Origin: an uncultured Cryomorphaceae bacterium
Lineage (GTDB): Bacteria; Bacteroidota; Bacteroidia; Flavobacteriales; Schleiferiaceae
Reading direction: 5' to 3'
Assembly: GCA_937120475.1 (NCBI GenBank)
Contig: CAKZJV010000009.1
Coordinates: forward strand, 124,001 to 188,000
Length of the DNA: 64,000 nt
Shown here: positions 4,525 to 56,142 of the stretch, piece by piece
How the letters are laid out: each line of letters begins with the position of its first letter
Position numbering within the stretch: position 1 is the first letter of the stretch
The notes under the pieces: generated by a model
Databases searched by the model: none
Seen by the model: the letters and a program-made list of their open reading frames with translations, nothing else
What the model was told of the DNA's origin: nothing
Program-made: the position numbers and the translations under genes

Positions 4525-4529
4525 TAATC

Positions 4530-5417
4530 ATGGCTGGAATTCGTGAGGAAATAAAGAGATACTTCAATGAGGGAGATGCCCTGGCTAAACTCATCCTCAT
4601 TAACCTTGGGGTTTATCTCCTTTACATTCTACTACGTATCTTAGGTACCTTAACCCAAACCGGGGCTCATCTTTTTTTTATCGAGTGGATAGCCCTGCCC
4701 AGTGACCTGGGTAAACTGGCTACCCGTCCGTGGACATTGGTTACTTATATGTTCACCCACCAGGACTTTTTCCATATTCTATTCAATGTTTTGTACCTGT
4801 ATTTTTCAGGTACCTTGTTTATACAATACCTGGGTGGCCGAAAACTATTGAGTACTTATATCCTGGGCGGACTTATTGGCGGAGCACTTTATGTGATCGC
4901 CTATAACGTGTTCCCGTTTTTTAGCGAGGCCGTGGCTGGCTCCAATAACCGCGGAGCTTCGGCCGGTGTAATGGCAATATTGGTAGCTATTGCTACTTAT
5001 GCACCCAATTTCAGGGTACGCCTGTTTTTTGTTTTGGAAGTAAAGCTTTGGGTGGTAGCCATTTTTGCCGTATTGCTGGACCTGGTGTATCTACCGGATA
5101 GTAATGCCGGGGGACACATTGCCCACCTCGGTGGTGCTCTTTTTGGATATGTTTCCATTCGTCAGCTAAAAAACGGTTCTGATATTACGGAAGGCTTTAG
5201 CCGCTTTATGGATAACATGGTGAACTTTTTCAAGCCACGTCCTAAAATACGCAAGGTATATACCAGCACCACCACCCGAAACGATTATAAATACAACCAG
5301 CGTAAAGCGCATACCCAGGAACGTATCGATGAAATACTGGATAAGATCAATCGTTCGGGTTACGACAGCCTTTCAAAAGAAGAAAGGGATTTTCTTTTTA
5401 AGGTAGGTAAAGATTAA
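4530..5417 (+). CDS. Rhomboid family intramembrane serine protease (second of two, with C-terminal tail)
   Basis: This 295-residue membrane protein has a candidate catalytic Ser144 in RGASAGVMA and His199 in HIAHLGGALFG. The residue after Ser is Ala, where the usual motif is GxSG, so activity is likely but not certain. THQDFFHILFNV (76-87) matches the rhomboid HxxxHxxxN helix. After the last membrane helix there is a basic cytoplasmic tail of ~80 residues, ending in a helical segment that includes LDKINRSGYDSLSKEERDFL. It differs clearly from the adjacent rhomboid, so the pair is probably old and not a recent duplication. Confidence 0.92.
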   Translation: MAGIREEIKRYFNEGDALAKLILINLGVYLLYILLRILGTLTQTGAHLFFIEWIALPSDLGKLATRPWTLVTYMFTHQDFFHILFNVLYLYFSGTLFIQYLGGRKLLSTYILGGLIGGALYVIAYNVFPFFSEAVAGSNNRGASAGVMAILVAIATYAPNFRVRLFFVLEVKLWVVAIFAVLLDLVYLPDSNAGGHIAHLGGALFGYVSIRQLKNGSDITEGFSRFMDNMVNFFKPRPKIRKVYTSTTTRNDYKYNQRKAHTQERIDEILDKINRSGYDSLSKEERDFLFKVGKD

Positions 5418-5423
5418 AATAGC

Positions 5424-6509: not shown

Positions 6510-7783
6510 TCCCCGGCCGGTGGTAAAAATGCCTGCATAAAGCAAAGAACCATAACCGGCCATACGGCCAGCATAAAACGTGAAGCATTAATAGGCCCCG
6601 TAATCAATACCACGTAAAATACCAATCCGGTTAAAAACCACTTCCATAAAGGGTGGAAGCTCTGCCGGAGTATGAAAAATACAAAGCCAACCATTAACAG
6701 CAGTTTATTCAACAGGCTAACCGCCATCAGTACAAACAATTGCCAGGACATTTGAGAGAGTACATCAGGAATGGCACTCCAGCCTTTTTCATTCAGGGCT
6801 TTAAGAAAGCCACTGCTGGTAGAAGTACCCTCTCCCAAAAAACTGCGCAAATCAAAATTACCCGGATCGAGCATTCCGCGAAAAGCTCCCTTCAGATGGA
6901 ACCAGAAATAGGCCAGCTCATCACGACTAATTTCATTCAGGGCTACATCCTGCATATATTGAACCTTAGCCGGAAAACCATCTATGTCGTTCAACCTTTG
7001 GTGAGCGGCATCCGCCACCTGATTGGCATAATCCGCTCCCTTACTCTCCACGTTAAAATAGTAGGCGTTGTAATCCAGCAGGTTGATGTAGGCGATACTT
7101 GAAAAGTGGGCCTTACCGGTTACCTCTTTATTACGCCAAAAGAAAAGTGCCACTATTAAAAGCGGTAGCAGTGAACCCCAGGCATACTTGCGGTAAAATA
7201 TCCCCCAAAAAGCCAGGTTGATTGCCAGGAACGGGAAAAAAACCGGCTTGGTAAATACAGCCACCAAAAGAAAAGTGTTGTACAACCACACCCAACGGAC
7301 ACCAGGTTGCAACCAGAAACGAAAATAGCTCCATAGCATACCGGTAACGGCTGCTATCAGTAGTATTTCGGACATTATGCTATTTACATACACAAAGTAA
7401 GGTACACTGCTGCTTACTATGAGCCCGAACCATAGTGGCCGGTAAACCCCCAATCGCAGTAATATGGAACGTAAACGGCTAAGCACCCAAACTGAAAGCA
7501 GGTTTTGCAGCAGCAAAATACCCCACCAGAAGTAATTGGCACCACTGAGCCAGAGTAAAAAAGGGTAAAAAGGCGGACGCTTGCTGTAATCGAAATAATT
7601 TACCGGAAGGCTCGTGTCACCACAGTATGCCAAATAGCCCTTACTGATGTTAAGGGCCTGTATCAGGTATTCCCTGGAATCGTTTAGAAGTGCGGGCCCC
7701 TGAACCAGGGTGTAGGCCAGGTATAGAGCGTGCAAGGCGATGGCCCATATCAGGAAATTTGTAAAGGATATTCTTTGGGTCAT
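6476..7783 (-). CDS. Polytopic membrane protein, GT39/GT83-type glycosyltransferase-like
   Basis: The 435-residue protein has about ten or more hydrophobic helices. A loop after the first helix reads LLNDSREYLIQALNISKGY, followed by SKRPPFYPFLLWL. An acidic/Tyr loop followed by RPPxYPxLL is typical of lipid-phosphate-sugar-dependent membrane glycosyltransferases (ArnT/PMT superfamily). The sugar and acceptor cannot be inferred. Its start is 83 bases downstream of the peroxiredoxin stop and is separated from it by a strong terminator hairpin. Its end overlaps the convergent EEP gene. The family assignment rests on topology and one loop. Confidence 0.68.
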   Translation of the reverse strand: MTQRISFTNFLIWAIALHALYLAYTLVQGPALLNDSREYLIQALNISKGYLAYCGDTSLPVNYFDYSKRPPFYPFLLWLSGANYFWWGILLLQNLLSVWVLSRLRSILLRLGVYRPLWFGLIVSSSVPYFVYVNSIMSEILLIAAVTGMLWSYFRFWLQPGVRWVWLYNTFLLVAVFTKPVFFPFLAINLAFWGIFYRKYAWGSLLPLLIVALFFWRNKEVTGKAHFSSIAYINLLDYNAYYFNVESKGADYANQVADAAHQRLNDIDGFPAKVQYMQDVALNEISRDELAYFWFHLKGAFRGMLDPGNFDLRSFLGEGTSTSSGFLKALNEKGWSAIPDVLSQMSWQLFVLMAVSLLNKLLLMVGFVFFILRQSFHPLWKWFLTGLVFYVVLITGPINASRFMLAVWPVMVLCFMQAFLPPAGDYRNSSSAITG

Positions 7784-7811
7784 ACCCGTTTATTGGACTT
7801 TACGAACCTAC

Positions 7812-7846
7812 AAAAAAAGCCCCCACGCTTTGGCGTGAGGGCTTTT
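7812..7846 (-). terminator. Rho-independent terminator after the peroxiredoxin gene
   Basis: On the minus strand, AAAAGCCCTCACGCC pairs with GCGTGGGGGCTTTT around an AAA loop and is followed by a T run. It lies 20 bases after the peroxiredoxin stop and just before the next minus-strand gene. The A/T flanks are symmetrical, so it may work in both directions. Confidence 0.85.
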
Positions 7847-7866
7847 GAGTATATTATGACTAATTA

Positions 7867-8499
7867 TTAGTTCTGGCTCAGGTAAGAAGCTACACCTTCG
7901 TGAGTAGCATTCATTCCGGATTTTCCTTCGTCCCAGTTAGCGGGGCAAACCTCACCTTTTTCTTCAAAAAACTGCAGGGCTTTTACCATACGGATGGCTT
8001 CATCTACATTACGGCCTAAAGGAAGGTCATTTACAATTTGGTGGCGTACCACACCATCTTTATCGATAAGGAAAAGACCACGGTAAGCTACCATTTCACC
8101 TTCAGCATTCAATTGATCATTCTCATCGTAGTAATAACTTCCGGCCATTACATCGTAGTTGGTAGCAATAGTTTTGTTGGTATCAGCTACCAATGGGTAG
8201 GTAATACCCTCAATACCACCTTTATCTTTTGGTACTTGCAACCATCCCCAGTGTGACTGCTCCGTATCGCAAGAAACGGCTACCACCTGCACTCCCAGAT
8301 TTTCAAAATCCTTTAGCCTGGATTGGAAAGCGTGCAGTTCGGTAGGGCATACAAAGGTGAAATCCTTTGGATAAAAGAACAGGATAACGTGCTTGTTACC
8401 GATGTACTGATCCAAGGAAAAATCTTCTACGATTTCCTCACCGTTAATTACAGCCGAAGCTTTGAATTGTGGTGCTTTTTTACCTACTAATACTCCCAT
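7867..8499 (-). CDS. Typical 2-Cys peroxiredoxin (AhpC/Prx1 family)
   Basis: The 210-residue thiol peroxidase reduces hydrogen peroxide and organic or nitrogen peroxides. FYPKDFTFVCPTE places the peroxidatic Cys at residue 51, and GEVCPANW places the resolving Cys at 185. The FVCP motif and the long C-terminal arm are those of typical 2-Cys enzymes that form head-to-tail dimers. The electron donor is probably a thioredoxin; no ahpF is adjacent. A good Bacteroidota promoter lies upstream and a terminator downstream, so the gene is probably monocistronic. Confidence 0.95.
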   Translation of the reverse strand: MGVLVGKKAPQFKASAVINGEEIVEDFSLDQYIGNKHVILFFYPKDFTFVCPTELHAFQSRLKDFENLGVQVVAVSCDTEQSHWGWLQVPKDKGGIEGITYPLVADTNKTIATNYDVMAGSYYYDENDQLNAEGEMVAYRGLFLIDKDGVVRHQIVNDLPLGRNVDEAIRMVKALQFFEEKGEVCPANWDEGKSGMNATHEGVASYLSQN

Positions 8500-8561
8500 G
8501 TTATTTGTTTTTTTAGAGATTATTTGATTTAACTATTCAAAATTTATTTTAATAGCGATTA

Positions 8562-8591
8562 CAAATTTAAGTCATCCTGAGCCTCCTCAAA
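8562..8591 (-). promoter_or_regulatory. Bacteroidota-type promoter of the peroxiredoxin gene
   Basis: On the minus strand TTTG (complement of 8588-8591) is followed after 18 bases by TAAATTTG (complement of 8562-8569). This fits the -33 TTTG / -7 TAnnTTTG pattern of the Bacteroidota [12 protein letters not shown] sigma factor. The predicted leader before ATG 8499 is about 55-60 bases and AT-rich. Confidence 0.6.
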
Positions 8592-8645
8592 GTAAACGGT
8601 ATTAGTTCTTTCTATAGGCTTATTCAGTAATGGCAATCACCAAGC

Positions 8646-9338
8646 CTATAAGCTCAACCAAGCCAGTATTACGGCCACGAGTGTGGTAGCCAGCTTTGAA
8701 AAGTTAAAGCGGTGGGATTGCGAAGATTCAAATAATATGGTGGTGGAAATATGAAGGAAAATCCCCAGTACTAAGGCCGTAATCTCACGGTGATATTGTG
8801 CCAGCAAACTGAGTTTATCGCCCAACAAAACACCGATGGGAGCCACCAAGGCAAAGCCCAGCATGAAGAGTATTATTTTCCAGCGTTTTCCAAATACTTC
8901 GGCCACCATAAAATACAGGACCAGGCTTACCGGTACCTTGTGAATAACGATGGCCCAAAGCAGGGTATGATCCCCGTGATTCTGATGGGTTCCTACCGGT
9001 AAACTTTCCAAAAGTGCATGCAGGTACAGGCTTACAATAATAGAAACAGGGATGCCCTTATTGCGGAACATTTCAAGGTGGCTATGGCCGTGTTCCACTC
9101 CTTTAGAGAAAAATTCGAGGATCAGTTGCAGGAAAAAGCCGCCCATTATAAAAAGCCCGATCTCCGTACCACCTCCACTATATACTTCAGGTATAAGGTG
9201 AAAAACGCCAATGCTCAGCAGATAGGCTCCGCTGAAGGTAAGCAGCATTTTTACCGGTGTGGTTTTAGGGTTGCGTATAAAACCCGCGGCAAGACTTCCT
9301 ACAACCACAGAACCAATAAGATAGAGATAATTAAGCAT
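8646..9338 (-). CDS. ZIP family divalent metal transporter
   Basis: The 230-residue protein has roughly seven to eight hydrophobic helices. The HALLESLPVG and AIVIHKVPVSL helices carry the paired His/Glu/Pro pattern of the ZIP metal-binding site in membrane segments 4 and 5, and a His-rich stretch (GTHQNHGDH) lies between them. ZIP proteins import Zn, Fe or Mn into the cytoplasm. It is preceded by the TauE/SafE-like gene on the same strand with a 92-base gap. The metal preference cannot be deduced. Confidence 0.88.
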   Translation of the reverse strand: MLNYLYLIGSVVVGSLAAGFIRNPKTTPVKMLLTFSGAYLLSIGVFHLIPEVYSGGGTEIGLFIMGGFFLQLILEFFSKGVEHGHSHLEMFRNKGIPVSIIVSLYLHALLESLPVGTHQNHGDHTLLWAIVIHKVPVSLVLYFMVAEVFGKRWKIILFMLGFALVAPIGVLLGDKLSLLAQYHREITALVLGIFLHISTTILFESSQSHRFNFSKLATTLVAVILAWLSL

Positions 9339-9430
9339 GATGGATATCGAACCGCAAATAAAATCAATCGCCCTGACTTCCGAAAACCATGCAGCGTTTA
9401 ATGCTGGATTTATAGATGACTTCTATAGTA

Positions 9431-10219
9431 TTAAAGCTCCAGTAGGCCAGCCAGCATCTGCGGAATACGTAGTAAGGTAACGGATGAAACAATGAGAATG
9501 ATAATCAGTAACCACCGCACATATTTATTGGCATCGGGAAGATACAGTATATACCGCGCACCGATTACCGCTCCCAGCGCCTGACCGGCTGCCAGGGTTA
9601 AACCGGGCTCCCAGCGCATATCGCCACTGTACCAAAAAATAAAAAAGGCCGGTACTACAAATACAAAAGCCAGTACCAGCTTGATAATGTTGGCATCGCG
9701 TAAACTGTATTCCGCCAGTAGCACCAATACACTTAGTAAGATTACACCCAAGCCCATTTGGATAAAGCCCCCGTAAACGGCCACCAGAAAAATCAGGATC
9801 CAGTTGAGCGTGGTTTTGTGGCTTTTGGAAACATCGGTAGCCTTCAACCAGCGCTTGGGGCGATTGAGCAAAGTGAACAACAAAAGCACCATAAAACCAC
9901 CGATGGTGTATCGTAAAATATCCGGGTTTATATCTATAGCCAGTAAGGCACCGATAACCGAACCCAAAATGGAAGGAATTAAAAACCAATAGCTATCCCT
10001 GAAAAGCAGCTTGGTACGTTTGGTTCTGCGCAGGCTTACCAGGGCGGTAGCGGTTTGTAAAGCAGCCCCAATACGGTTGGTGGCATTGGCCACGTTGGCA
10101 GGAAGTCCCAAAAATATGAGCAGGCTCAAGGTAATAGCCGAACCATTACCCGCCAGGGTATTGATGATGCCTGCCAAAAAGCCTCCCAAAAAAAGTAAGA
10201 TGTACTGATAAACTTCCAC
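9431..10219 (-). CDS. TauE/SafE family membrane permease (sulfite exporter-like)
   Basis: The 262-residue protein has about eight hydrophobic helices. The N-terminal motif GGFLAGIINTLAGNGSAITLSL and the internally repeated half (VYGGFIQMGLGVILL) are typical of the TauE/SafE (formerly DUF81) family. Members export sulfite, sulfoacetate or other small organic anions, but most are uncharacterised. No sulfur-metabolism gene is adjacent, so the substrate is unknown. It lies between the symporter and the ZIP gene on the same strand. Confidence 0.88.
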   Translation of the reverse strand: MEVYQYILLFLGGFLAGIINTLAGNGSAITLSLLIFLGLPANVANATNRIGAALQTATALVSLRRTKRTKLLFRDSYWFLIPSILGSVIGALLAIDINPDILRYTIGGFMVLLLFTLLNRPKRWLKATDVSKSHKTTLNWILIFLVAVYGGFIQMGLGVILLSVLVLLAEYSLRDANIIKLVLAFVFVVPAFFIFWYSGDMRWEPGLTLAAGQALGAVIGARYILYLPDANKYVRWLLIIILIVSSVTLLRIPQMLAGLLEL

Positions 10220-10282
10220 GGATATTTACAGGCCGAAAGTAAAGTTTTTAAACAGCACCCAATCACACGGGCACGCTAAACT

Positions 10283-12082
10283 TTAATGCCGTACCGTACG
10301 GTTTTCCACTTCCGTTTTACGCATACTCCACAGCATAGCGAATAAACACACCACAGCCACCACCGTCCATAAAGCAAACAAGCCCCAATCCTGGAACAGG
10401 AAATACCCGAATAAAAACAAAACGGAATACACCATCAGGGTTCCGGAAAGCCAGCTTATTAGCGGGTAGCGGAGGGAATGCTCACTTTTACGGTCTCCTT
10501 TAACGGGTTTCCACCATCCACCGGGTTTTACTCTTTGGTAAAAGGATTGCAGTGTGGCCTGATCGGTAGGCTTGCTTAAATATGTAGCCAACAGCCACGC
10601 TACGGTGGTAAAGAGCACGGTGAAAATAAAGGCTCCGTTTTGGGCGAAAAAAGATTCGGGCAGCCAGCCCGGCAAAACACCGTTGGCAATGGCCAAACCT
10701 AAAACCGGGGCCAGCGTGGCAATAAGCTCACTCCAGGCATTAATGCGCCACCAGTACCAGCGCAAAATAAGCACCATACCCAAACCGGCACCGCTGGCAA
10801 TAAGGAATTGAGCGGCCGTATCAATCATGGTAATTTGTGAAGTTACCGCTAAGGCAATGAGCATAATCAAAACGGTGAAAACACGCCCGGCCTTTACGTA
10901 GTGGCGATCAGCCGTTCCCGCATTCTCAAAGTTCTCCTCCCTTTTTATAAATCGTTTGTAAAGATCATTGGTGAGGTAACTCGCCCCCCAGTTTAACTGG
11001 GTGGAAATGGTGCTCATATAGGCTGAGAAAAAACCCACCAGCAAAAGGCCCTTTACCCCTACCGGTAAATAGTCGCGCATGGCCATAATAAACCCTTTCC
11101 GGGATTCTTCCACCGGCAAATCAGGGTACAACACCAAAGCGCAAAGCCCCACTATAATCCAGGGCCAGGGGCGCAAACAGTAATGAGCAATCTGAAAAAA
11201 CAAACTGGAGTACACCGCATTTTTTTCGTCTTTGGCACTCATCATGCGCTGCGAAATATATCCCCCACCACCGGGCTCGTTGCCCGGATACCAACTGGCC
11301 CACCACTGCAAAGCGATGTAAGAGAAAAATGCCCCGGCCGATAGTGAAAAGGTGCCTACCGCAACATCGGAAACCCCTGAAATGGTAGGGAAAATATTGA
11401 GCCGCCAGGCGGGAAGCTTTTCTTTCAGGCCTTCCACTCCACCCACTTCCGGCACATTCAATACAATAACCGCCAGTACAATACACCCTGCCATGGCAAT
11501 AATAAATTGCACAAAATCGGTCATGGCAATACCCAATAAACCCGCTACCGAACTGTAAACTGCCACCAAAACCATAGCTACTGCTACGGCCCAGAAAGCA
11601 GTTTCATAAGGAATCTCGAAAAACACTTCCAATATGGAAATGAGTGCTGCGTTTACCCAACCGATGATAATGGTATTGAGGAACAAGCCGAGATAAACGG
11701 ACTTCACTCCCCTGAGTAAGCGGGCTACCGGTCCGCTGTAGCGCAATTCCAAAAATTCCAGTTCCGTCAATATTTCGGCCCTGCGCCATAATCGCGCAAA
11801 AAAGAAAGTGGTGAACATACCCCCGATGAGCATATTCCACCACAGCCAGTTTCCCGAAACCCCGTGTTGGGCGATCTTTTCCGTAACCCATAAAGGAGTA
11901 TCGGCAGCAAAGGTGGTGGCCACCATGCTTACCCCCGCAATATACCAGGGTAAGTTACGCCCTCCCAGGAAAAAATCGCTGAGGCTGTTACCGGCTTTGC
12001 CGCGAAAACTGATACCGATAAGGATAAAACCGGAAAGGCAAACGATCAGGATTACCCAGTCCAATAATGCGAGATTAGCCAT
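10283..12082 (-). CDS. Sodium:solute symporter (SSS family)
   Basis: The 599-residue protein has about 13-14 transmembrane segments. The start (LDWVILIVCLSGFILIGI), the motif FFLGGRNLPWYIAGVSMVAT and the following TFAADTP resemble the sugar/sialic-acid/inositol branch of the SSS family, which imports solutes with Na+. The central AYMSTISTQLNWGASYLTND segment is also characteristic. The substrate cannot be assigned. The small gene gaps suggest transcription with the downstream TauE/SafE-like gene. Confidence 0.92.
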   Translation of the reverse strand: MANLALLDWVILIVCLSGFILIGISFRGKAGNSLSDFFLGGRNLPWYIAGVSMVATTFAADTPLWVTEKIAQHGVSGNWLWWNMLIGGMFTTFFFARLWRRAEILTELEFLELRYSGPVARLLRGVKSVYLGLFLNTIIIGWVNAALISILEVFFEIPYETAFWAVAVAMVLVAVYSSVAGLLGIAMTDFVQFIIAMAGCIVLAVIVLNVPEVGGVEGLKEKLPAWRLNIFPTISGVSDVAVGTFSLSAGAFFSYIALQWWASWYPGNEPGGGGYISQRMMSAKDEKNAVYSSLFFQIAHYCLRPWPWIIVGLCALVLYPDLPVEESRKGFIMAMRDYLPVGVKGLLLVGFFSAYMSTISTQLNWGASYLTNDLYKRFIKREENFENAGTADRHYVKAGRVFTVLIMLIALAVTSQITMIDTAAQFLIASGAGLGMVLILRWYWWRINAWSELIATLAPVLGLAIANGVLPGWLPESFFAQNGAFIFTVLFTTVAWLLATYLSKPTDQATLQSFYQRVKPGGWWKPVKGDRKSEHSLRYPLISWLSGTLMVYSVLFLFGYFLFQDWGLFALWTVVAVVCLFAMLWSMRKTEVENRTVRH

Positions 12083-12103
12083 GCAACAAGATTAATAAGA
12101 ATT

Positions 12104-13018
12104 TTAATATTCCGATAACTGCGCCCGAACGCCAATACAGGGGCTCAACTTCGAACCCATAATCTTGACCTGGTACCATTCTCCCGTAAAAGAGGTCCTG
12201 AAATAACCCGAATCATCAAAGGCCACCGCCCGTGTTCCATACTCCACCTTTTTATCTTTATTGAAAGTAGCCTTGCGCACGGGAGCACGTTTTTCCGAAC
12301 CGGATGATCCGGACATCTCCGCCTTGCCGCCTGGCAAAAACTGAATGGATACTATAAAATCATGGTTTACAGCAAGGTTATAGGCGCTGATGTCACGCAC
12401 CACTTCGGAGGATTTTTCCCATACCTCGAAAATGACACTTTCCCGGATAATTAAAGACCCCGGTGACCCATGAGAATTGAGGTTGTAAATATTCATCCGC
12501 AACCATAGGGTATCTTCTTCGCTTTTTAATACCTGGAACTTTACCTCATCGAGCCGCGCCACCTGGGTTTCCTTCAGCCCCACCTTTACCGCGAACTCCA
12601 TACCCGGCAGTGGCGAAAGCTTGACTCCACTTACACCACTACCCCAGTTGCCCAACTTCTTTTCAAACACCCTTTCAGGTGGTTTTAGATTCACTGCATC
12701 CAGGTGATATACGGCCGGAGACATTTTTACACTGGCTAAGCTATCCCCGGCCGGGAACAGTTGGTTCAAAGCCAGCACCTTTTTATCAAAAGCTATGGCA
12801 GATAGTAATATCGAGTCATTGTTTGTCAGGCTCCCGGTAGGGATAAGCACCACGCCATTGATATCGCTGATAAAACCGCTTTGAGAAGGTTTTAATATAA
12901 TATGAGCAAAGGCCACCGGTTCACCCCCTTCAGATGAGAGTAGCTTGAGCCGGAAACCTTGGGCCGATGCATCCGGTAAGGCATAAAAAAATAAAATAAG
13001 CGCCCACAATTTACTCAT
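12104..13018 (-). CDS. Secreted protein with N-terminal carboxypeptidase-regulatory-like domain
   Basis: The 304-residue protein has a signal peptide ending near ALPDASAQG. Residues ~23-110 (KLLSSEGGEPVAFAHIILK, then SGFISDINGVVLIP) look like the beta-sandwich found at the N-terminus of many Bacteroidota outer-membrane proteins (CarboxypepD_reg-like). The remainder is beta-rich with no TonB plug or barrel and no recognised domain. It lies 21 bases upstream of the symporter gene on the same strand and is divergent from the lipoprotein gene at 13095. A periplasmic or surface location is inferred. Confidence 0.72.
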   Translation of the reverse strand: MSKLWALILFFYALPDASAQGFRLKLLSSEGGEPVAFAHIILKPSQSGFISDINGVVLIPTGSLTNNDSILLSAIAFDKKVLALNQLFPAGDSLASVKMSPAVYHLDAVNLKPPERVFEKKLGNWGSGVSGVKLSPLPGMEFAVKVGLKETQVARLDEVKFQVLKSEEDTLWLRMNIYNLNSHGSPGSLIIRESVIFEVWEKSSEVVRDISAYNLAVNHDFIVSIQFLPGGKAEMSGSSGSEKRAPVRKATFNKDKKVEYGTRAVAFDDSGYFRTSFTGEWYQVKIMGSKLSPCIGVRAQLSEY

Positions 13019-13067
13019 GACTCCAGCATTCCATTCTTAAAGTACTAATAAAGGCAATTTCAATTTG

Positions 13068-13075
13068 TAATTTTG
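13068..13075 (+). promoter_or_regulatory. Candidate -7 element TAATTTTG for the lipoprotein-rlmL-cyclase run
   Basis: TAATTTTG is a full match to TAnnTTTG, 19 bases before the ATG at 13095. I see no clear TTTG at the -33 spacing. Confidence 0.45.
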
Positions 13076-13094
13076 CCCGCCTAAACGAATTGTC

Positions 13095-13436
13095 ATGAAG
13101 AAAGCCCTGGTTTGCATTGCCCTCTTAGCGGCAGCCTGCTCCACCGATACATCCTCCAGCGATGACCCCTACCTGGCCGATTCCGAAATATTCGATACCG
13201 AAGTAGGTGGCCGCAGGGTGTATGGCGTACGCCTTTTCTTTTCCAGCCCTGACCAAAAGCCCCGTAACCTTGGCTACCAGGTAAGCCTGTACCAGAGTGA
13301 TAAAGTTTGGATAGACACCCTATACACGGAAATCAGCGCCAATGATACCGTTGAAGGAGAGGTGATTTTTACCGAATCACGCTTTAAAAAGGGAGAAAGA
13401 ACCAGCTTCAAAACCGAGTCTTTTGAAGTGGAATAA
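13095..13436 (+). CDS. Small lipoprotein of unknown function
   Basis: The 113-residue protein has a lipoprotein signal (IALLAAACSTD, lipidated Cys at about residue 15), then a Ser/Asp-rich linker and a single beta-rich domain of ~85 residues (VYGVRLFFSS, YQVSLYQSDKVWIDTLY, VEGEVIFTESRF). I recognise no family. Its end overlaps the methyltransferase gene by 14 bases in another frame, which suggests co-transcription. Confidence 0.75.
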   Translation: MKKALVCIALLAAACSTDTSSSDDPYLADSEIFDTEVGGRRVYGVRLFFSSPDQKPRNLGYQVSLYQSDKVWIDTLYTEISANDTVEGEVIFTESRFKKGERTSFKTESFEVE

Positions 13437-14586
13437 CGACAACCTATCCATGATGGCCAAAACCTATTTTGGCCTGGAGGGCGTATTGGCCAAAGAGCTA
13501 CAGGTACTGGGAGCCCGCAATGTAAAGGCAGCAAACCGCGCGGTTTTTTTTGAGGGCGACCTGGGTTTTGTGTATAAGGCGAACTTATGGACACGTACGG
13601 CCCTGCGCATATTGGTACCCATCGCCCATTTTAAAATACGCAATGAAGAAGAACTGTACCGCAAATTAAAGGAAGTAGCCTGGGAAGATTACTTTGAGGT
13701 GACCAAAACCTTTGTGATTGATGCCAACGTTTTTGCACGCCAGTATAAAAACAGCCTTTTTATTGCCCAGCGCAGCAAGGATGCCGTTGTAGATCGCTTT
13801 CGTGAAAAAAGCGGGCGCAGGCCTTCGGTACATACGCAAAACCCGGATATACGCATTAACGTACACATTGCCAATGAAAAAGTTACCGTTTCGCTGGATA
13901 GTTCAGGAGAATCGCTCCACAAGAGGGGTTACCGTACCGAAGCAGACCGGGCGCCCATCAGCGAAGTACTGGCAGCCGGTATCCTTAAACTCAGTGGTTG
14001 GGATGCCCTGCGTGATTTTGTAGATCCGATGTGCGGTTCGGGAACCTTCCTGGTTGAAGCGGCCCTGATGGCACATAATATTCCCGCCAATATCTTCAGG
14101 AAAGATTTTGCCTTTAAAAACTGGAAGGGGTTTGACCAGGAACTCTTTGGACTGCTGTTCGACAAAGCCCTGGAGAAGGAAAAAAACTTTCACTTTAACA
14201 TTTACGGCTTCGACCGTTCGGCCATGGTTTTGCGTAAGACGCAAAAAAACCTGCGCAATGCGCTTATGCTGGAACAGGTTCAAACGGAGCAAGCTGACTT
14301 CATGGAATTTACCCGTCCCGAATATTTCCGCGACCACGGCCTGGTGGTATTTAACCCTCCGTACGGTGAAAAGATGGAAGCGGATATTCCCGAACTCTAC
14401 CGTGGCATTGGCGATACCCTTAAACGCGAATTTGCAGGCTTTGAGGTTTGGCTTTTTACCTCATCAGCCGAGGGTTTGAAAAACGTGGGTCTGAAACCCT
14501 CCAAAAAAATCCAGCTTTACAACGGAAAGCTTGAGAGCTGGCTGGTTAAATACGAAGTTTATGAAGGCAGTAAAAAGCATACTTAA
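13423..14586 (+). CDS. THUMP-domain class I SAM-dependent RNA methyltransferase (RlmL-like)
   Basis: The 387-residue protein has an N-terminal THUMP RNA-binding region (about 55-165), then a Rossmann methyltransferase with the SAM motif FVDPMCGSGTFLVEAAL and the catalytic motif VFNPPYGEKM (NPPY), typical of base-N methylation. It corresponds to the N-terminal half of RlmKL/YcbY, which makes m2G2445 in 23S rRNA. The start could be ATG 13423 or the internal ATG near 13450 (MMAKTYFGLEG), which fits the family start better and avoids the overlap with the lipoprotein gene. The 3' end overlaps the next gene by 26 bases. Confidence 0.9.
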   Translation: MKWNNDNLSMMAKTYFGLEGVLAKELQVLGARNVKAANRAVFFEGDLGFVYKANLWTRTALRILVPIAHFKIRNEEELYRKLKEVAWEDYFEVTKTFVIDANVFARQYKNSLFIAQRSKDAVVDRFREKSGRRPSVHTQNPDIRINVHIANEKVTVSLDSSGESLHKRGYRTEADRAPISEVLAAGILKLSGWDALRDFVDPMCGSGTFLVEAALMAHNIPANIFRKDFAFKNWKGFDQELFGLLFDKALEKEKNFHFNIYGFDRSAMVLRKTQKNLRNALMLEQVQTEQADFMEFTRPEYFRDHGLVVFNPPYGEKMEADIPELYRGIGDTLKREFAGFEVWLFTSSAEGLKNVGLKPSKKIQLYNGKLESWLVKYEVYEGSKKHT

Positions 14587-15598
14587 AAAGGGCTTGAGCC
14601 TTTTAGCGGCAAGCCTGATGGTTATCTCCTGCGGGCGGGATGCCACGGAGCAGATCAAAATCCGCAGCCTGGATGTAGAGGCTCCCGAAAAGGTAAGGGT
14701 AGGTGAAAATTTCACCGTTCGGATATTGGAGGAAGCCGAAATGGACTCTCTCACGGTGAGTGGCGTAAAACCGCTGCAAACATCGGAAGACGGGCGCACC
14801 TACACTTTTGCCTTTGATTATACCGGAGCACAGAAAATTCAATTTGAGGGATTCCGGGGGGAGAAAAAGTGGCAAAAAACCATACGGGTAACCGTTTTAC
14901 CCGCTCAAAATCCGCTTCGGCTGGATTATGAAATTATACAAACCCTGAACCACCCCGGTGACTCCTACACCCAGGGGCTTGAATTTGCAGATGGATACCT
15001 TTATGAGAGTAAAGGCCAATACGGTACTTCGGGTGTACGCAAGATGGATTTTCCGGCCATGACGGTAAATCATGAGATCAGTCTTAACTCAGAATACTTC
15101 GGGGAGGGCCTTACCTTGATGAATGATACGGTATTTCAACTAACCTGGCGGGAGCGAACCTGTTTTCTCTACAATAAAGATCTGAAAGGCAAGGGAGTAA
15201 TGCCCCTGCCACTGGCCGAGGGATGGGGCATTTGTAACGATGGTAAAGCCCTCTATATTTCAGACGGTAGTCAACGCCTTTACCGTTTTAACAGCCGACT
15301 AAAGCTTTTGGATAGCCGTGAGGTCTATCTTGGGCAAAGGCCCCTCAACCGGCTTAACGAATTGGAATTTGTGAGCGATAAAGTGTACGCCAATGTGTAT
15401 CAATCCGACCAGATTTTCAGGATCGATTATAAAAGCGGTGTGGCTGATGCCATGCTGGACCTTTCGGAGCTAAGGGGTAAACTGACCAACCCCAGGGCCG
15501 AAGTACTGAACGGCATTGCCTACCTCCCCGAACGCAACCTCTTTTTAGTAACGGGCAAGTACTGGGACAAGGCTTTCCTGATTGCTATTAAAGATTAG
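14561..15598 (+). CDS. Glutaminyl-peptide cyclotransferase, lipoprotein form
   Basis: I chose ATG 14561 (345 residues) because it gives a clean lipoprotein signal, KGLSLLAASLMVISCGRD; the upstream TTG at 14531 adds only methyltransferase-overlap codons. After a ~100-residue N-terminal beta domain, the motif HPGDSYTQGLEFADGYLYES marks the five-bladed propeller of plant/bacterial-type glutaminyl cyclase (PF05096), which turns N-terminal Gln into pyroglutamate. In the periplasm it could cyclise Gln exposed by signal peptidase; many Bacteroidota secreted proteins, including several here, begin the mature chain with Gln. That link is inference. Confidence 0.87.
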   Translation: MKAVKSILKKGLSLLAASLMVISCGRDATEQIKIRSLDVEAPEKVRVGENFTVRILEEAEMDSLTVSGVKPLQTSEDGRTYTFAFDYTGAQKIQFEGFRGEKKWQKTIRVTVLPAQNPLRLDYEIIQTLNHPGDSYTQGLEFADGYLYESKGQYGTSGVRKMDFPAMTVNHEISLNSEYFGEGLTLMNDTVFQLTWRERTCFLYNKDLKGKGVMPLPLAEGWGICNDGKALYISDGSQRLYRFNSRLKLLDSREVYLGQRPLNRLNELEFVSDKVYANVYQSDQIFRIDYKSGVADAMLDLSELRGKLTNPRAEVLNGIAYLPERNLFLVTGKYWDKAFLIAIKD

Positions 15599-15756
15599 CT
15601 CTCCTCCTGATCGGCTGCCCGGGAATGATTGGTAACTGAATTTCCGGGGGTCATATCCTCGCAACCATTAGGACATTTGTCCCACACACTGGCGTTTCCA
15701 TTTTTATAGACGAGGTACCGGCCATCATTGCGCTTATAGCATTTACAGTTTGGCAT
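15595..15756 (-). CDS. Small Cys-rich protein (53 residues), function unknown
   Basis: The minus strand from ATG 15756 to TAA 15595 encodes MPNCKCYKRNDGRYLVYKNG, then a segment with WDKCPNGCED and a polar tail ending DQEES. Four Cys are arranged as CxC and CPNGC, 21 residues apart, which could bind a metal such as zinc. There is no signal peptide. The stop overlaps the convergent glutaminyl cyclase stop by a few bases, and the next minus-strand gene ends at 15799, 42 bases upstream. Support comes from the tight fit between genes and codon use like its neighbours. Confidence 0.6.
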   Translation of the reverse strand: MPNCKCYKRNDGRYLVYKNGNASVWDKCPNGCEDMTPGNSVTNHSRAADQEES

Positions 15757-15798
15757 ATTTAAAGTAGTACATGGTTAACATTTTTGGTACGCCTGATT

Positions 15799-16533
15799 TT
15801 ACCCATTCGGATTTTCAAGCGGGGCCAGCCGTATTACATCTTCACCGAACATATCAGAAAGATCAAATACCAGTGATTTACCACCGCTTAAAAAGTGATG
15901 GCCGAATTTTTTAACACTTCGTAAAACCCACTCTTCCCCCTCCTTTTCATAACGGAATATCACCTCCACCTTTTCCTTGCGGTACTGCGGTGTGGGTGGG
16001 TTACCGCATATCCCGATCACCCTTTCCACGTTATTTACCGTTACCGATATCATATTACCCGCAGAATTCAAAGGGTCTCTTTTACCGGCAAAAAGACTGT
16101 AGTATTCCCAACCGGTATCTTTTATATTCCGAACGTTGCCATTCACAAATTCAGGGTAGTTCTGGAACATTCCAAAGGCCACACTGAGAATATACATGGG
16201 CTCTTCCTCACTGCAAAGATTGCCGGGGCTCAGTTCCAGTAGTTTAAAAACCAACTGCCCGCTGGGCAAGCCCTCGCATTCACAATCTTTAAAGCAAATG
16301 GCATCGCTTTGAATACCGTCTTTGGATATCGGGCAAATATCAAAGCTGGCGGTGTATTCCTTTTCCTGGTAGCAATCTAAAATTGGCAGGCTTTGCGAGG
16401 TTTCGGTTTGTGGGTAATAAACTTCTATGTCCGGTTTAAAACCATCTCTTATTTGAAAATAAGATTGTTTGGTGCAAGCTGAAACCAGCAGCATACAACA
16501 AACGCCAATCAACCCTGATCTTATGCTATTCAT
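15799..16533 (-). CDS. Lipoprotein of unknown function
   Basis: The 244-residue protein has the lipobox LLVSACTKQ, with the lipidated Cys near residue 20. The mature part is beta-rich with several Cys (CYQEK, FDICPI, CFKDCECEG, LCSEEE, GICGNPP), suggesting disulfides in the periplasm. I recognise no domain. Its start overlaps the end of the upstream barrel-like gene by 8 bases, so the two are probably co-expressed and may work together at the outer membrane. Confidence 0.75.
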   Translation of the reverse strand: MNSIRSGLIGVCCMLLVSACTKQSYFQIRDGFKPDIEVYYPQTETSQSLPILDCYQEKEYTASFDICPISKDGIQSDAICFKDCECEGLPSGQLVFKLLELSPGNLCSEEEPMYILSVAFGMFQNYPEFVNGNVRNIKDTGWEYYSLFAGKRDPLNSAGNMISVTVNNVERVIGICGNPPTPQYRKEKVEVIFRYEKEGEEWVLRSVKKFGHHFLSGGKSLVFDLSDMFGEDVIRLAPLENPNG

Positions 16534-17512
16534 ACTGCTTTGAGTATTGTAAAAAATTGGTACTTAAGCCTATTTTAATTTTGTTGTTATCCTGGTTTTT
16601 ATGCAACGCATAGTTTAAGCCCGCGTGCAGCAAATCCTGAAGCCCATAGTAGGTGGTTTTGCCAGTTTCATCATTGTAGCTGCTCAATGAGCCCCGAATG
16701 CCGATATCCACTGCGTAATTGCGGTTGAGCCAAACCTTCAGGTTATACTCGGAAGAGTTTAAACGTGCATCGGCTCCCTGCCCCCCGGCCGTATTGTAAT
16801 CTAAAACATCAAAGCCCATAAGGGTGGAGAATTTATACATCAAAGAAGAAAAACCGGTAAACTGGTCGAAACTCAGCTCAGCGGTGTTATAACCTTCGTT
16901 ATTGTGGAAGGTAAGACCCAGTCCCCCGGTCCAGTAGCGATCCAGGTTATCACTCAAGCCGATCCACTCCATAATATTACCTCCGTCATTGTAATAGTTG
17001 AGGGTAAAATTCTGTACCGTAAGGGTAAACGACTCGGTGTATTGGTGCCTCCCTTTATTATTCAGAACCAGGTTGGAGGTAAAGAATAAACCGTAGTCTT
17101 TAAAATGCACCAGGTTATAGGTGCTGTGGTTGTTCATGGTGCGGATGTACTTTCCGGCACTGCTTTCGCGCATGAGGCTTTGCTCCGCACCATATCTGAA
17201 ATCACTGGCGTAGCCAATGGTAAAGGAATTCACAAGATCGGCCTGCAAATCAAATTTCAAAGGAGTGGAAAGGCTTCCAAGGGTATTATTATACACGGAA
17301 AGTACCGGGCCGTAATTAACCACCATACCGTTTTGAAATCGCTGGTTCACGATGGCCCCTAGGTAGGAACGTACGGCCGGGAATTGCCTACCCTTGCCCC
17401 GGTACATATCCACCTCCAGCCCCCAGCGAACTTCTACCCGGGTTAAACTGAATTGAGCATACGAACCATACGCATAAAGGAAAAAGCCTGCGAGAAGTAG
17501 AATTTTTTTCAC
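16526..17512 (-). CDS. Secreted beta-rich protein, possible outer-membrane beta-barrel
   Basis: The 328-residue protein has a signal peptide (LLLAGFFLYAYGSYAQ) with the mature chain starting at FSLTRVEVRWGLEVDMY. Regular alternating strands with aromatic ends continue through the chain, for example GLTFHNNEGYNTAELSFDQF, as in small outer-membrane barrels or polymorphic-toxin-associated DUF barrels. No specific family is recognised. It overlaps the lipoprotein gene downstream by 8 bases, and the T9SS cargo gene upstream is 90 bases away. Confidence 0.65.
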   Translation of the reverse strand: MKKILLLAGFFLYAYGSYAQFSLTRVEVRWGLEVDMYRGKGRQFPAVRSYLGAIVNQRFQNGMVVNYGPVLSVYNNTLGSLSTPLKFDLQADLVNSFTIGYASDFRYGAEQSLMRESSAGKYIRTMNNHSTYNLVHFKDYGLFFTSNLVLNNKGRHQYTESFTLTVQNFTLNYYNDGGNIMEWIGLSDNLDRYWTGGLGLTFHNNEGYNTAELSFDQFTGFSSLMYKFSTLMGFDVLDYNTAGGQGADARLNSSEYNLKVWLNRNYAVDIGIRGSLSSYNDETGKTTYYGLQDLLHAGLNYALHKNQDNNKIKIGLSTNFLQYSKQYE

Positions 17513-17602
17513 AGTGGAAGGTTTGGTTGATCAATTAAGAACTAAAGGTAAAAAAATAAGTGACTTGCACCTACAGAGACCTCTTTTAACATACGCTCCG
17601 GC

Positions 17603-18877
17603 TTATGGCTGCAAAATTACCCGCTGGAAATGTACTGGTTTTCCGTTTCTCAGTACTTGTAGTTGATATAAACCCGGAACGTATTGATGCATAGGGATGA
17701 CCTCTTCCTCCGTGACTTTTTGCCGGTGCATCAATTCACGGCCGCTACTGTCATATAACCTAACGGACACGGGCTCGTTGCCCAAACCCTTCAGGAATAC
17801 CTGGCCATGAGAGGGATTAGGATAAACGCCAATTGAATTGCCCCCGTCTTTGTCTTCAGGAAGGCCAACACCGCAACTGTGAAAAAGCTCCATCCCAAAA
17901 ACAGGGTTTTGAAGCCAGGATGGCCCCTGTGAAATCGGCACCCATTGACCGGTGTGCTTGGTAAACACCTTACAGGCTGCATCGGGTTGAATTACGGTGG
18001 TATCATTGTACAGTTCTATTTTGCGGGTCCCTTGAGTGGAATAGAGCCTCAGAACAAACCAAAAGTATTTTTGCTCCCCCTGAGCAAGGTTAAACGTAGA
18101 AGGCCACGAAGAATTGAACTTTTGAAGCCCTGAAGAAGCTGAGGGCCTTATGGACCAGGAATCTGAAAGGAGCGGACTTCCGGAAAAAGTACCGTTAAGA
18201 GTATCAAAAGCGACCGGATCATACACCTCAAGGGAAATATCCCCACCCACCACAGTAGCCGGCCCCAGCTTTATCAAGGCCGCACTTAAGGAGTTATAGT
18301 AATCTATCGGCATTAAGTAAGCAAAGCCGTAACCATCTTCTCCCAAACTATCGGTTGTATAAGTATTTCCGTAATGTCCGTAATCGGTGGAGTACTGATA
18401 ATCCAGGTGCGAAGGCGGATAATAAAGGCTGTTAAAGGAAAATTCCTCCGGCCCGATCTGGCCATTAGCCTCTATGCGAACCGAATAAATACTTGCCGCG
18501 TAATCAACAGCATCTCCGGTATTGGTCAGGGTTTGAGCATAGGTAGTGGTATCACCGGGATGTAAGGTGTCAATCACCGGGGAAAGAAATACCTTCGCTA
18601 ATCCACCACCCGGAAAGTAGGTCTCCACCCTCAGTCGAACCCCGGTAACGGACGTAGTGCCGGTGTTGGCAATATGCGCCCGAAAGGCAAATGAAATATT
18701 CAAGGTGGTATCGGCACCCTTCAGGCATTGCCCAATAGCGGCCAACTTAACGTGATCTTCATTTCCGTTGTAAAGAACGTCAAAAGGACTCTCACCTTTG
18801 TACCAAACCAGCTCCAGGTTCTGCGCAAAGGAGCCTTTTAAAATGAAAAGAAATAGCAGGAGTAAATAGGACTTCAT
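17603..18877 (-). CDS. T9SS type A sorting-domain protein, paralogue 1
   Basis: The 424-residue protein has a signal peptide ending at GSFAQ. The body resembles its neighbour at 19149 along the whole length: NLELVW, GESPFDVLYNGNEDHVK and LYNDTTVIQPDAACKV occur in near-identical form in both. The first ~120 residues after the signal read as an immunoglobulin-like fold (HIANTGTTSVTGVRLRVETY). The C-terminal ~75 residues start IGVYPNPSHGQVFLKG and end with VPGLYQLQVL, the type A T9SS sorting domain. The protein is therefore expected to be exported and attached to or released from the surface. The role of the body is unknown. Confidence 0.85.
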   Translation of the reverse strand: MKSYLLLLFLFILKGSFAQNLELVWYKGESPFDVLYNGNEDHVKLAAIGQCLKGADTTLNISFAFRAHIANTGTTSVTGVRLRVETYFPGGGLAKVFLSPVIDTLHPGDTTTYAQTLTNTGDAVDYAASIYSVRIEANGQIGPEEFSFNSLYYPPSHLDYQYSTDYGHYGNTYTTDSLGEDGYGFAYLMPIDYYNSLSAALIKLGPATVVGGDISLEVYDPVAFDTLNGTFSGSPLLSDSWSIRPSASSGLQKFNSSWPSTFNLAQGEQKYFWFVLRLYSTQGTRKIELYNDTTVIQPDAACKVFTKHTGQWVPISQGPSWLQNPVFGMELFHSCGVGLPEDKDGGNSIGVYPNPSHGQVFLKGLGNEPVSVRLYDSSGRELMHRQKVTEEEVIPMHQYVPGLYQLQVLRNGKPVHFQRVILQP

Positions 18878-53489: not shown

Positions 53490-53500
53490 GCGAAATTACA

Positions 53501-54349
53501 ATGATTTTAAACGATAAAAGCTCCGTACCAAAAATGACCGAAGCACAGCAAATAATAGAGAGAGCCTGGGATAACCGCAGTGAACTGGAAAAGCCTGAAG
53601 TAGTAAAAACCATAGAGGGCATTATTGAAGAAATTGACAAAGGCCGTTTGCGCTGTGCGGAACCTACCGACCAGGGTTGGCAGGTGAATGAATGGGTTAA
53701 AAAAGCGGTGATCCTTTATTTCCCGACCCGTAAAATGGAAAGCCTGGCGGCCGGGCCACTGGAGTTCCACGACAAAATTCCGCTGAAATCAGGCTACCAG
53801 GAACTGGGTATAAGAGTGGTACCGCACGCCATTGCCCGTTACGGGGCTTATGTTTCCAAAGGGGTAATTATGATGCCTTCGTATGTAAACATCGGTGCGT
53901 ACGTAGATGAGGGCACCATGGTGGATACCTGGGCTACCGTGGGTAGTTGTGCACAAATCGGTAAAAACGTACACCTGAGCGGTGGCGTAGGCATTGGTGG
54001 TGTGTTGGAGCCGGTGCAGGCTTCACCGGTAATTATCGAGGATAACTGTTTTTTAGGCTCCCGCAGTATAGTGGTGGAAGGCATCCGTATTGAAAGGGAA
54101 GCGGTACTGGGTGCTAATGTGGTATTGACGGCCTCCACCAAAATATTGGATGTGACCGGCAGCGAACCGAAGGAAATCAAAGGTTATATTCCTTCCCGCT
54201 CGGTGGTTATCCCCGGTAGTTATACCAAAAAATTCCCGGCCGGTGAATTCAACGTTCCCTGCGCCTTGATCATCGGGCAGCGTAAAGAAAGTACCAATAA
54301 AAAGACCTCCCTTAACGATGCGTTGCGGGAATACGGGGTTTCGGTTTAA
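53501..54349 (+). CDS. dapD: Tetrahydrodipicolinate N-succinyltransferase
   Basis: The protein adds succinyl-CoA to tetrahydrodipicolinate in lysine and peptidoglycan-precursor synthesis. The left-handed beta-helix core carries the diagnostic stretch PSYVNIGAYVDEGTMVDTWA followed by GSCAQIGKNVHLSGGVGIGG, nearly as in E. coli. ATG 53501 gives 282 residues; ATG 53534 (MTEAQQIIERAW, 271 residues) aligns better with the E. coli start and may be the true one. A TTG at 53465 is rejected. It is divergent from yqgF and tightly followed by a convergent AT-rich gene. Confidence 0.97.
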   Translation: MILNDKSSVPKMTEAQQIIERAWDNRSELEKPEVVKTIEGIIEEIDKGRLRCAEPTDQGWQVNEWVKKAVILYFPTRKMESLAAGPLEFHDKIPLKSGYQELGIRVVPHAIARYGAYVSKGVIMMPSYVNIGAYVDEGTMVDTWATVGSCAQIGKNVHLSGGVGIGGVLEPVQASPVIIEDNCFLGSRSIVVEGIRIEREAVLGANVVLTASTKILDVTGSEPKEIKGYIPSRSVVIPGSYTKKFPAGEFNVPCALIIGQRKESTNKKTSLNDALREYGVSV

Positions 54350-54368
54350 GAGCATTATATAAACCCCT

Positions 54369-55355
54369 CTAGTTATTTGAGTTTGCCGGAACAATAGAAT
54401 CTCCCACTTTGGCCACGATGTCTTTGATATCTTTAAGAAGCATTTCAAGATAGTCAATATTGCATATTAGGATATTCTTAGTGTTGTATAGAGTTTCACC
54501 TTCTTTCAGTTGATTAATTAAAATCCGCGTGGATGATAATTTAATTTCTTGCCCATCAGGTGAATTATTCCAAGGAATTGACACCTCATGAAGTTTACTG
54601 TACAAGGACAAATTCACGTTAGAGTCAAAATTATTGGGAACATCTTGAAAAAGATTTTTCACATGTGTAGTCAGTGAATCATATCCGGAATGATTATAGA
54701 TAAGGTATGGTACAACTCTAGAAAAATTTAGTAGTTCATCAGAAGCTTTGAGTTTTTCGACTGAGAAATCTTCATTTACTATCCTTAGCTGCGCACTTGT
54801 CACCAATAAATTTGCAATTGCAAATGGGCTAACATCTACAGCATCAGAAGTAATAGAACTCAAAACGTTGTTCTTAATTACTACAGGAGCCGCAAATATT
54901 AATTGACTAAGTCCATGAAGAATTTCAGCATCATGTACATCACCCCTATCTAAATTTACTTCCATTCCCTTGTAAGCAACATCCTTCAAATAGAAGTTAC
55001 TAAGTTTCATAAATTTCTGGACTGACAAAGAATCTACAAACTCTATCATAGAATCTGAAGTTTGATCATGCGGGTGTCTAACTTGAGGTAAAAAAATCCA
55101 CTCTTTATTAGGATCTCTATACTTACACTCTACCAACAAATCAAAATCCAAATCAATTTGACTCTCATCACCAAATGGATAATAGCAAGTTGCGAGAATA
55201 TCAACGGAAAATTCTTTTTCTTGATTACCATCTAATCTTCGATAAGAAAAATCAGAGTTGATATAGAACTTTTCATTACTTAATATCTTGGCTACTTCAT
55301 ACTCGAAGGGAAAACTAGATCTTAATAAATTTTTCTTCCAGGCCTTTTGAGACAT
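54369..55355 (-). CDS. Predicted PD-(D/E)XK nuclease-like protein, AT-rich, probably acquired
   Basis: The 328-residue protein has no signal peptide. Its N-terminus shows the ordered residues of a PD-(D/E)XK nuclease: Glu18/Glu20 in FPFEYEVAKIL, Asp52 in EFSVDILA, and Glu76/Lys78 in FDLLVECKYRDP. The remaining ~240 residues are unrecognised, mixed alpha/beta. Bases 54481-54540 have 20 G+C of 60, against 33 of 60 in dapD (53701-53760), and codons differ from neighbours (frequent AAT, TTA, AGT). It fits in a gap of 20 bases or less on each side between dapD and an MBL-fold gene. Restriction-like defence or DNA repair is possible; no methyltransferase or partner is adjacent. Confidence 0.7.
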   Translation of the reverse strand: MSQKAWKKNLLRSSFPFEYEVAKILSNEKFYINSDFSYRRLDGNQEKEFSVDILATCYYPFGDESQIDLDFDLLVECKYRDPNKEWIFLPQVRHPHDQTSDSMIEFVDSLSVQKFMKLSNFYLKDVAYKGMEVNLDRGDVHDAEILHGLSQLIFAAPVVIKNNVLSSITSDAVDVSPFAIANLLVTSAQLRIVNEDFSVEKLKASDELLNFSRVVPYLIYNHSGYDSLTTHVKNLFQDVPNNFDSNVNLSLYSKLHEVSIPWNNSPDGQEIKLSSTRILINQLKEGETLYNTKNILICNIDYLEMLLKDIKDIVAKVGDSIVPANSNN

Positions 55356-55374
55356 AACTTAACTACAACTGTTA

Positions 55375-56142
55375 TTAATCGATTCTTATCTCTAATTCAT
55401 CCCATGATAAATATACATCATCAGGTAGGTTTTTACTTTCTTCTTCATGTTGGCCCATTTGGTGGCTGACATGAATTATAAACGTTTGCCCGGCTCCCAA
55501 TTCACGGCTTAAGTCAATGGCTTCCTGTAAAGTAAAGTGAGAATGGTGCGGGGTTTTTCGGAGGGCATTTAAAACCAGGTAGCGGCTGCCCTGTACCTTT
55601 ACTTTCTCCTCTTCTGAAATGTAATTGGCATCAGTAATGTAGGTGAAGTCACCCATGCGAAAGCCCAAAACCGGTAGTTGCCCGTGCATTAATTGAATAG
55701 GTTCAAAGTGAATATCGCCCACCGTAAAGGCTTTTTCCCCGATGGTTATCAACTCAATTTGTGGAATACCCGGGTAATTGGGGTTATTGAAAATATAGGA
55801 ATACTGTTCTTTCAAACGCCTTTGCACCTGCTCAGTGGCGTAAACCGTCATTGGCTTTTGCTGAAAGTAGTTGAAGGCTCTGACCTCGTCCAAACCCGCC
55901 AGGTGATCCATATGCTCATGAGTCAGCACTATGGCATCCAGGGTTTGTATGCCGCTACGCAGTACCTGTTGCCGGAAATCGGGACCAATATCAATCACCA
56001 CCCTGGTGGTTTCACTTTCCACCATTAAAGAACAACGCAGTCGTTTGTCACGCGGGTCGCTGGAAGTACATACCGGGCAGTTGCAGCCAATTACCGGTAT
56101 GCCTTGTGAGGTGCCCGTTCCTAAAAATGTATATCGCATCAA
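55375..56142 (-). CDS. MBL-fold metallohydrolase (PhnP-like)
   Basis: The 255-residue protein has the metallo-beta-lactamase motif LTHEHMDHLAGLDEVRAF, with further ligands in DIGPDF, HGQLPV and DANYISEEE. The start GTGTSQGIPVIGCNCPVCTS with a Cys pair is typical of the PhnP/lipoyl-protein-ligase-associated branch, which hydrolyses cyclic phosphodiesters. The substrate is not known. No phosphonate gene is nearby. Confidence 0.92.
   Translation of the reverse strand: MMRYTFLGTGTSQGIPVIGCNCPVCTSSDPRDKRLRCSLMVESETTRVVIDIGPDFRQQVLRSGIQTLDAIVLTHEHMDHLAGLDEVRAFNYFQQKPMTVYATEQVQRRLKEQYSYIFNNPNYPGIPQIELITIGEKAFTVGDIHFEPIQLMHGQLPVLGFRMGDFTYITDANYISEEEKVKVQGSRYLVLNALRKTPHHSHFTLQEAIDLSRELGAGQTFIIHVSHQMGQHEEESKNLPDDVYLSWDELEIRID

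Follow-up and report, generated by a model that had tools for sequence, protein, structure and literature searches.

Integrons supply the closest described precedents for defense by one small autonomous gene. In the chromosomal integron of Vibrio cholerae, at least 16 of 179 cassettes are anti-phage, and integrons hold defense in a small, streamlined form (PMC12409362); cassettes commonly encode restriction and toxin-antitoxin functions (PMC8618304). The attC sites have the consensus RYYYAAC ... GTTRRRY (PMC12901181), and cassettes can also enter genomes at attG sites (Loot et al. 2024, cited in PMC12901181). Type IV restriction enzymes that stand alone, such as Mrr and MspJI, are built on a PD-(D/E)XK core and need no methyltransferase. 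Nor is it rare for a solitary nuclease to have been acquired horizontally.

The gene described here, from an uncultured Cryomorphaceae bacterium, resembles each of these systems in part. Some of its homologs, like the V. cholerae anti-phage cassettes, are found in attC arrays as small autonomous genes; unlike those cassettes, the copy in the window (by which we mean the whole 64,000-nt stretch of DNA that was analyzed) is not part of an array and lacks an attC site, and its anti-phage role is predicted. With attG-inserted cassettes it shares its position as a lone gene at a nonintegron chromosomal site and the existence of cassette homologs, but insertion at attG should have carried attC along, and the window copy has none. 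The encoded protein shares with the PD-(D/E)XK superfamily (NERD, Mrr_cat, UPF0102, Hjc, PDDEXK_15) a predicted core topology and the E...D...E-x-K spacing in the expected elements, whereas it falls below every curated cut-off of the named families, has a long insertion before the second core helix, and displays motifs of its own. Compared with Mrr and MspJI, it would likewise combine a PD-(D/E)XK core with independence from a methyltransferase, but it has no significant homology to them, lacks a known modified-base reader domain, and differs in motif III. The model is best read as placing the protein in a new, unnamed family inside the known PD-(D/E)XK superfamily, and we posit that this horizontally acquired nuclease probably provides one-gene defense against phage or plasmid DNA.

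An AT-rich gene between dapD and an MBL-fold hydrolase gene

The ORF (Table 1) starts with ATG and is free of internal stops. Its GC content of 33.4% (0.334) is the lowest among the 54 predicted genes of the window (z = -6.7; mean of the other genes, ~0.46; second-lowest gene, 0.417), which bears out a preliminary description that had called the gene AT-rich from a sample of 20/60 versus 33/60 G+C in gene and neighbors. The two genes that flank this insert, dapD (whose longest ORF begins at 53465) and the MBL-fold hydrolase gene, are housekeeping genes, and their identity as the neighbors is confirmed by Pfam; both gaps are 19 nt, in keeping with the 20 bases or less claimed earlier. No cognate methyltransferase, no ATPase partner, and no small partner ORF lies beside the gene, and here too the initial observation that it has no adjacent methyltransferase, ATPase, or toxin partner was accurate. 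The composition break lies slightly within the MBL gene rather than at the edge of the nuclease ORF: the final 96 nt of the MBL gene (55375-55470) are AT-rich, with a GC content of 0.35 versus 0.43-0.52 further upstream, and the transferred segment may include this 3' end.

Table 1. Coordinates of the nuclease gene, its predicted motif codons, and its flanks within the window
Feature	Position	Strand	Basis or remark
Solitary nuclease gene, predicted PD-(D/E)XK, unnamed family, 328 aa	54369..55355	-	ORF, homologs, AF2 model
E18-Y19-E20 codons, motif I, model helix 15-27	55296..55304	-	invariant in 7 full-length homologs; E18 invariant in 18
D52 codon, motif II, model strand 45-59	55200..55202	-	invariant in all aligned homologs
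E76-C77-K78 codons, motif III E-x-K, strand 69-78	55122..55130	-	homolog alignments, AF2 model
Q151 codon in H147-G-x-x-Q151-L, helix 143-169, possible fourth motif	54903..54905	-	invariant in 7 close homologs
dapD (tetrahydrodipicolinate N-succinyltransferase), convergent flank	53498..54349	+	Pfam THDPS_N_2, hexapeptide; empty-site comparison
MBL-fold hydrolase gene (Lactamase_B_2), co-directional flank upstream of the nuclease ORF	55375..56142	-	Pfam
19-nt gap, dapD side (dapD stop 54349)	54350..54368	.	shorter than any attC site could be
19-nt gap, MBL side (MBL stop 55375)	55356..55374	.	without detectable cassette boundary

The gene is single-copy in its own genome and absent from 59 relatives, two of them from the same genus. 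In one congener (G002) the site is empty, with dapD and the MBL gene convergent and adjacent and their stop codons 2 nt apart; in a member of another genus (G005) it is empty too, the two genes being adjacent with ~70 nt between them, and in a further congener (G001) the downstream neighbor of dapD differs. From the empty site in relatives it follows that the two convergent genes received an insert of ~1 kb between them, with damage to neither; no flanking repeat or duplication could be recognized around the insert. The gene came in by horizontal transfer and was placed where dapD and the MBL gene converge. An insertion between core genes had been proposed, and both the empty sites and the combination of absence from the relatives with atypical composition (the opposite of a gene present at this place in all relatives with normal composition) uphold a recent insertion.

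Predicted fold and catalytic residues

The AF2 model, computed from an 18-sequence alignment that included distant homologs and left out plasmid-derived rows, has a pLDDT of 77.9 and a pTM of 0.82; the seven close homologs alone gave a pLDDT of 41, which was not usable. Its helix 15-27, strands 31-42, 45-59, 69-78, and 84-90, helix 143-169, and strand 178-186 follow one another in the alpha-beta-beta-beta-(beta)-alpha-beta order of a PD-(D/E)XK core, with 84-90 as an extra strand. The catalytic half-core extends to about residue 90, and an insertion (~91-142, partly of low confidence) then separates motif III from the second core helix and the strand after it. What had been taken for a large unrecognized C-terminal domain is, in the model, no separate domain: it holds the core helix 143-169 and strand 178-186 beyond the insertion, and a C-terminal strand-helix that can be aligned with shorter homologs. 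The nuclease assignment itself fared better, as the modeled chain has the PD-(D/E)XK core order with the named residues in place.

Those residues, Glu18/20, Asp52, and Glu76-x-Lys78, had been picked out as a nuclease pattern before any homolog was aligned, and they prove to be conserved in homologs and to lie on the expected elements of the model. E18, E20, D52, E76, and K78 are invariant across the seven full-length homologs; in the 18-sequence set, E18 and D52 are invariant, and E76 and K78 are conserved in at least 90% of sequences. A minority of distant homologs (L095, L096, L097, L015) have Ser or Ala in place of the motif III Glu, and therefore not all of these relatives may be active. 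Two motifs, W86-x-F-L-P and H147-G-x-x-Q-L, are distinctive of the family. Judging from the model, the fold probably has at its center a metal-dependent nuclease core made up of E18/E20, D52, E76, K78, and perhaps Q151.

Searches of PADLOC, NCBIfam, and PHROGs gave no match for the window protein, and Pfam gave only a chance one; a sequence search of the PDB returned nothing meaningful. Homologs of the protein have sub-threshold profile matches to NERD (E = 0.008), UPF0102 (0.02 and 0.1), PDDEXK_15 (0.03), Xpf (0.04), Mrr_cat (0.05), and Hjc (0.065), among which those to NERD, Mrr_cat, UPF0102, and PDDEXK_15 all fall on the same N-terminal motif stretch. Each of these matches is weak; it is their agreement that, at the level of sequence profiles, suggests the superfamily. 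Foldseek yielded no match at E <= 1e-3, and TM-scores were low, with the superfamily enriched among the matches: the leading PDB matches, none of them significant, are for the most part proteins that we take to belong to it (NotI, MspJI, the R2 endonuclease domain, VC1899, Exo5, SSO0001/Cas4, and archaeal Hjc), and so are the viral structure matches, none at E <= 1e-3 (Exo8-type PDDEXK, Holliday resolvases, and UL24/UL76). Weak matches to PDC-M60A, KwaA, and CARF were judged to be chance; the only PADLOC family match was that of L015 to PDC-M60A (E = 0.0024), at residues 130-215, outside the catalytic motifs.

Distribution of the family and carriage by integrons

Full-length relatives with 31-40% identity occur in Maribacter, Winogradskyella, a Chloroherpetonaceae MAG, Pedobacter, and Hymenobacter and, in another phylum, in Cohnella; distant relatives with the same motifs are found in other Flavobacteriaceae, in Bacillota, and on plasmids of Leptospira, Priestia, and Enterobacter, and homologs are spread over Bacteroidota, Bacillota, Spirochaetota, and Enterobacterales. 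The family is rare: a random sample of 395 genomes of the phylum contained one further full-length member, and the wide family was present in 6 of 250 randomly sampled genomes from the family to which Winogradskyella belongs, the starting genome included. A match in G162 (L003) contains stops and was rejected as spurious. Searches of phage and viral collections, viral contigs among them, found no relatives and leave a phage origin unsupported. Strong purifying selection acts between homologs in two pairs, with dN/dS of 0.09 for the Maribacter and Winogradskyella proteins, which are 95% identical despite their different host genera, and of 0.10 for the second pair. The Hymenobacter copy has a GC content of 32% within a locus of 61% GC.

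In the Winogradskyella and Cohnella loci, single ORFs follow one another on the same strand, with related repeats that have attC features (RYYYAAC ... GTTRRRY) between them, and attC-like repeats lie between the ORFs of L006 and L010. Direct scans for attC proved either over-strict or noisy, and a cassette-closing test replaced them. The ends of a cassette are complementary because R' and R'' pair after circularization; the test accordingly compares 10 nt starting with GTT upstream of a gene and 10 nt ending with AAC downstream, alongside shuffles and control genes. Pairing is perfect in L005, L006, L010, L083, and L093 and reaches 9/10 in L070 and L015, a complementarity that shuffles attain in 0-0.5% of cases. 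At least 7 of 20 homologs score 9/10 or better, versus 3 of 126 control genes outside arrays (Fisher P = 3e-5; 1.5e-4 if the Maribacter/Winogradskyella pair is treated as one), a comparison with a small inequality in that gene starts were hand-chosen for some homologs and taken from the longest ORFs for controls. The attC-like folds downstream are interrupted hairpins (z of -2.8 in L006, -4.8 in L010, and -2.0 in L005). L008, L009, L079, L080, and L081 do not pass the cassette-closing test.

In L083 (G1226, Flavobacteriaceae; 2904-18001), a 355-aa tyrosine recombinase is followed by a long same-strand cassette array with attC-like repeats and a homolog inside. This recombinase resembles integron integrases, scoring 202 bits against NF040815 (cut-off 220) and 185 against TIGR02249 (cut-off 265). 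Because matches to TIGR02249 occur in all 14 control genomes, none above the cut-off, we applied a stricter standard and call integron-like only full-length integrase candidates with 185-210 bits against NF040815/TIGR02249. The congener G001 has such an integrase; the searches of the window's own genome returned no convincing integron integrase, only XerC/D-like matches. In the Gram-positive Cohnella terricola, the attC-like sites of a large cassette array measure ~160-190 nt (L010:1-11836), and the end of another contig holds an integrase candidate (L063:933-2090).

The family often travels as single-gene integron cassettes between distant bacteria. At the window copy, the best R'/R'' pairing is 6/10, with a shuffle fraction of 0.48, and neither an attC site or attC remnant nor a cassette boundary or hairpin is found; descent of this copy from a cassette is what its relatives suggest. 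The preliminary description had called for a survey of homologs' neighbors. That survey agrees with it in finding no constant methyltransferase partner (none is annotated or recognized near any homolog examined) and goes beyond it in finding integron cassettes repeatedly. No small partner ORF is constantly paired with homologs either.

Several homologs lie among toxin-antitoxin genes, and several of those outside arrays have defense-like neighbors, namely, an MNT-HEPN pair in L009, a TIR protein in L007, an AriA/OLD-like ATPase in L008, and a NACHT-type NTPase in L081. The last of these, a 1411-aa protein, is encoded directly downstream of a distant homolog and on the same strand (L081:3770-8905, G1038). 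In Pedobacter panaciterrae (L008:10014-15663), an adenylosuccinate synthetase-like protein is encoded beside a PfkB/nucleoside 2-deoxyribosyltransferase-like protein, with the AriA/OLD-like ATPase nearby; this cluster might be a nucleotide-based defense or phage-derived. On an Enterobacter hormaechei plasmid (L095:7684-9080), a co-directional helix-turn-helix gene precedes a distant homolog, and the two sit within a methionine-salvage gene cluster, much as if a lone gene had inserted there together with its regulator.

Proposed one-gene defense and its alternatives

In the explanation that we favor, one-gene defense, the predicted metal-dependent PD-(D/E)XK core would cut DNA, and the family-specific insertion together with the C-terminal part would supply target recognition or control. 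Since the relatives are autonomous one-gene cassettes without a methyltransferase, the protein should work alone; since a sequence-specific nuclease left unrestrained would damage the host, cleavage is probably gated. The host could be spared if cleavage required (i) a foreign feature, such as modified bases, DNA structure, or free ends, or (ii) an infection trigger, rather than a fixed unmodified sequence. It is in this sense that we infer nuclease activity, a role in defense, and a mode of self/non-self discrimination. If this reading is right, environmental Bacteroidota and Bacillota integrons hold a compact one-gene nuclease family that defense catalogs have missed, the partnerless cassettes would be a clean system for studying how the genome of the host escapes a nuclease that acts alone, and a single atypical gene between core genes would be traceable to cassette-borne relatives. 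A broader claim, that the family is widespread and self-sufficient, owes its spread among phyla mainly to single-gene integron cassettes, and confers one-gene immunity to mobile DNA through a new self/non-self discrimination residing in the insertion and C-terminal region, is put forward tentatively, as less likely than not.

In its most specific form, the defense explanation would make the protein a modification-dependent (type IV-like) restriction enzyme that cuts modified-base phage DNA. The lack of a methyltransferase in any neighborhood examined, the presence of MspJI among the structural matches, and that of Mrr_cat among the sub-threshold ones are consistent with such an enzyme, but Pfam finds no SRA, PUA-like, or EVE reader domain, and motif III is E-x-K here, not the Q-x-K of MspJI and Mrr, and we regard this form as rather doubtful. 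A structure-specific nuclease of repair or recombination (Hjc-, Xpf-, or NERD-like), gained horizontally and acting on branched DNA or ends of the host, would equally need no methyltransferase partner, and the sub-threshold Hjc and Xpf matches and the Hjc structure among the Foldseek matches point toward it; however, the very patchy distribution, the cassette carriage, and the frequent toxin-antitoxin or defense-like neighbors are atypical of housekeeping repair genes, and we regard repair as unlikely. The cautious initial reading as a one-gene defense or repair nuclease is supported, with repair the less likely of its two halves.

The gene could also be a conditional toxin or addiction gene, whose cell-damaging nuclease either has its antitoxin elsewhere or acts in abortive infection; integrons often contain toxin-antitoxin cassettes (PMC8618304), and several homologs keep such company, but a small partner ORF is found neither by the window gene nor as a constant companion of its homologs, and we consider a toxin improbable. 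A functionless passenger at a harmless site between two convergent genes, to which we assign the lowest probability of the readings weighed here, would accord with the intact neighbors and with the possibility that a cassette ORF has no promoter of its own; against it, the ORF is full-length and retains all of the predicted catalytic residues, and dN/dS between homologs is ~0.1.
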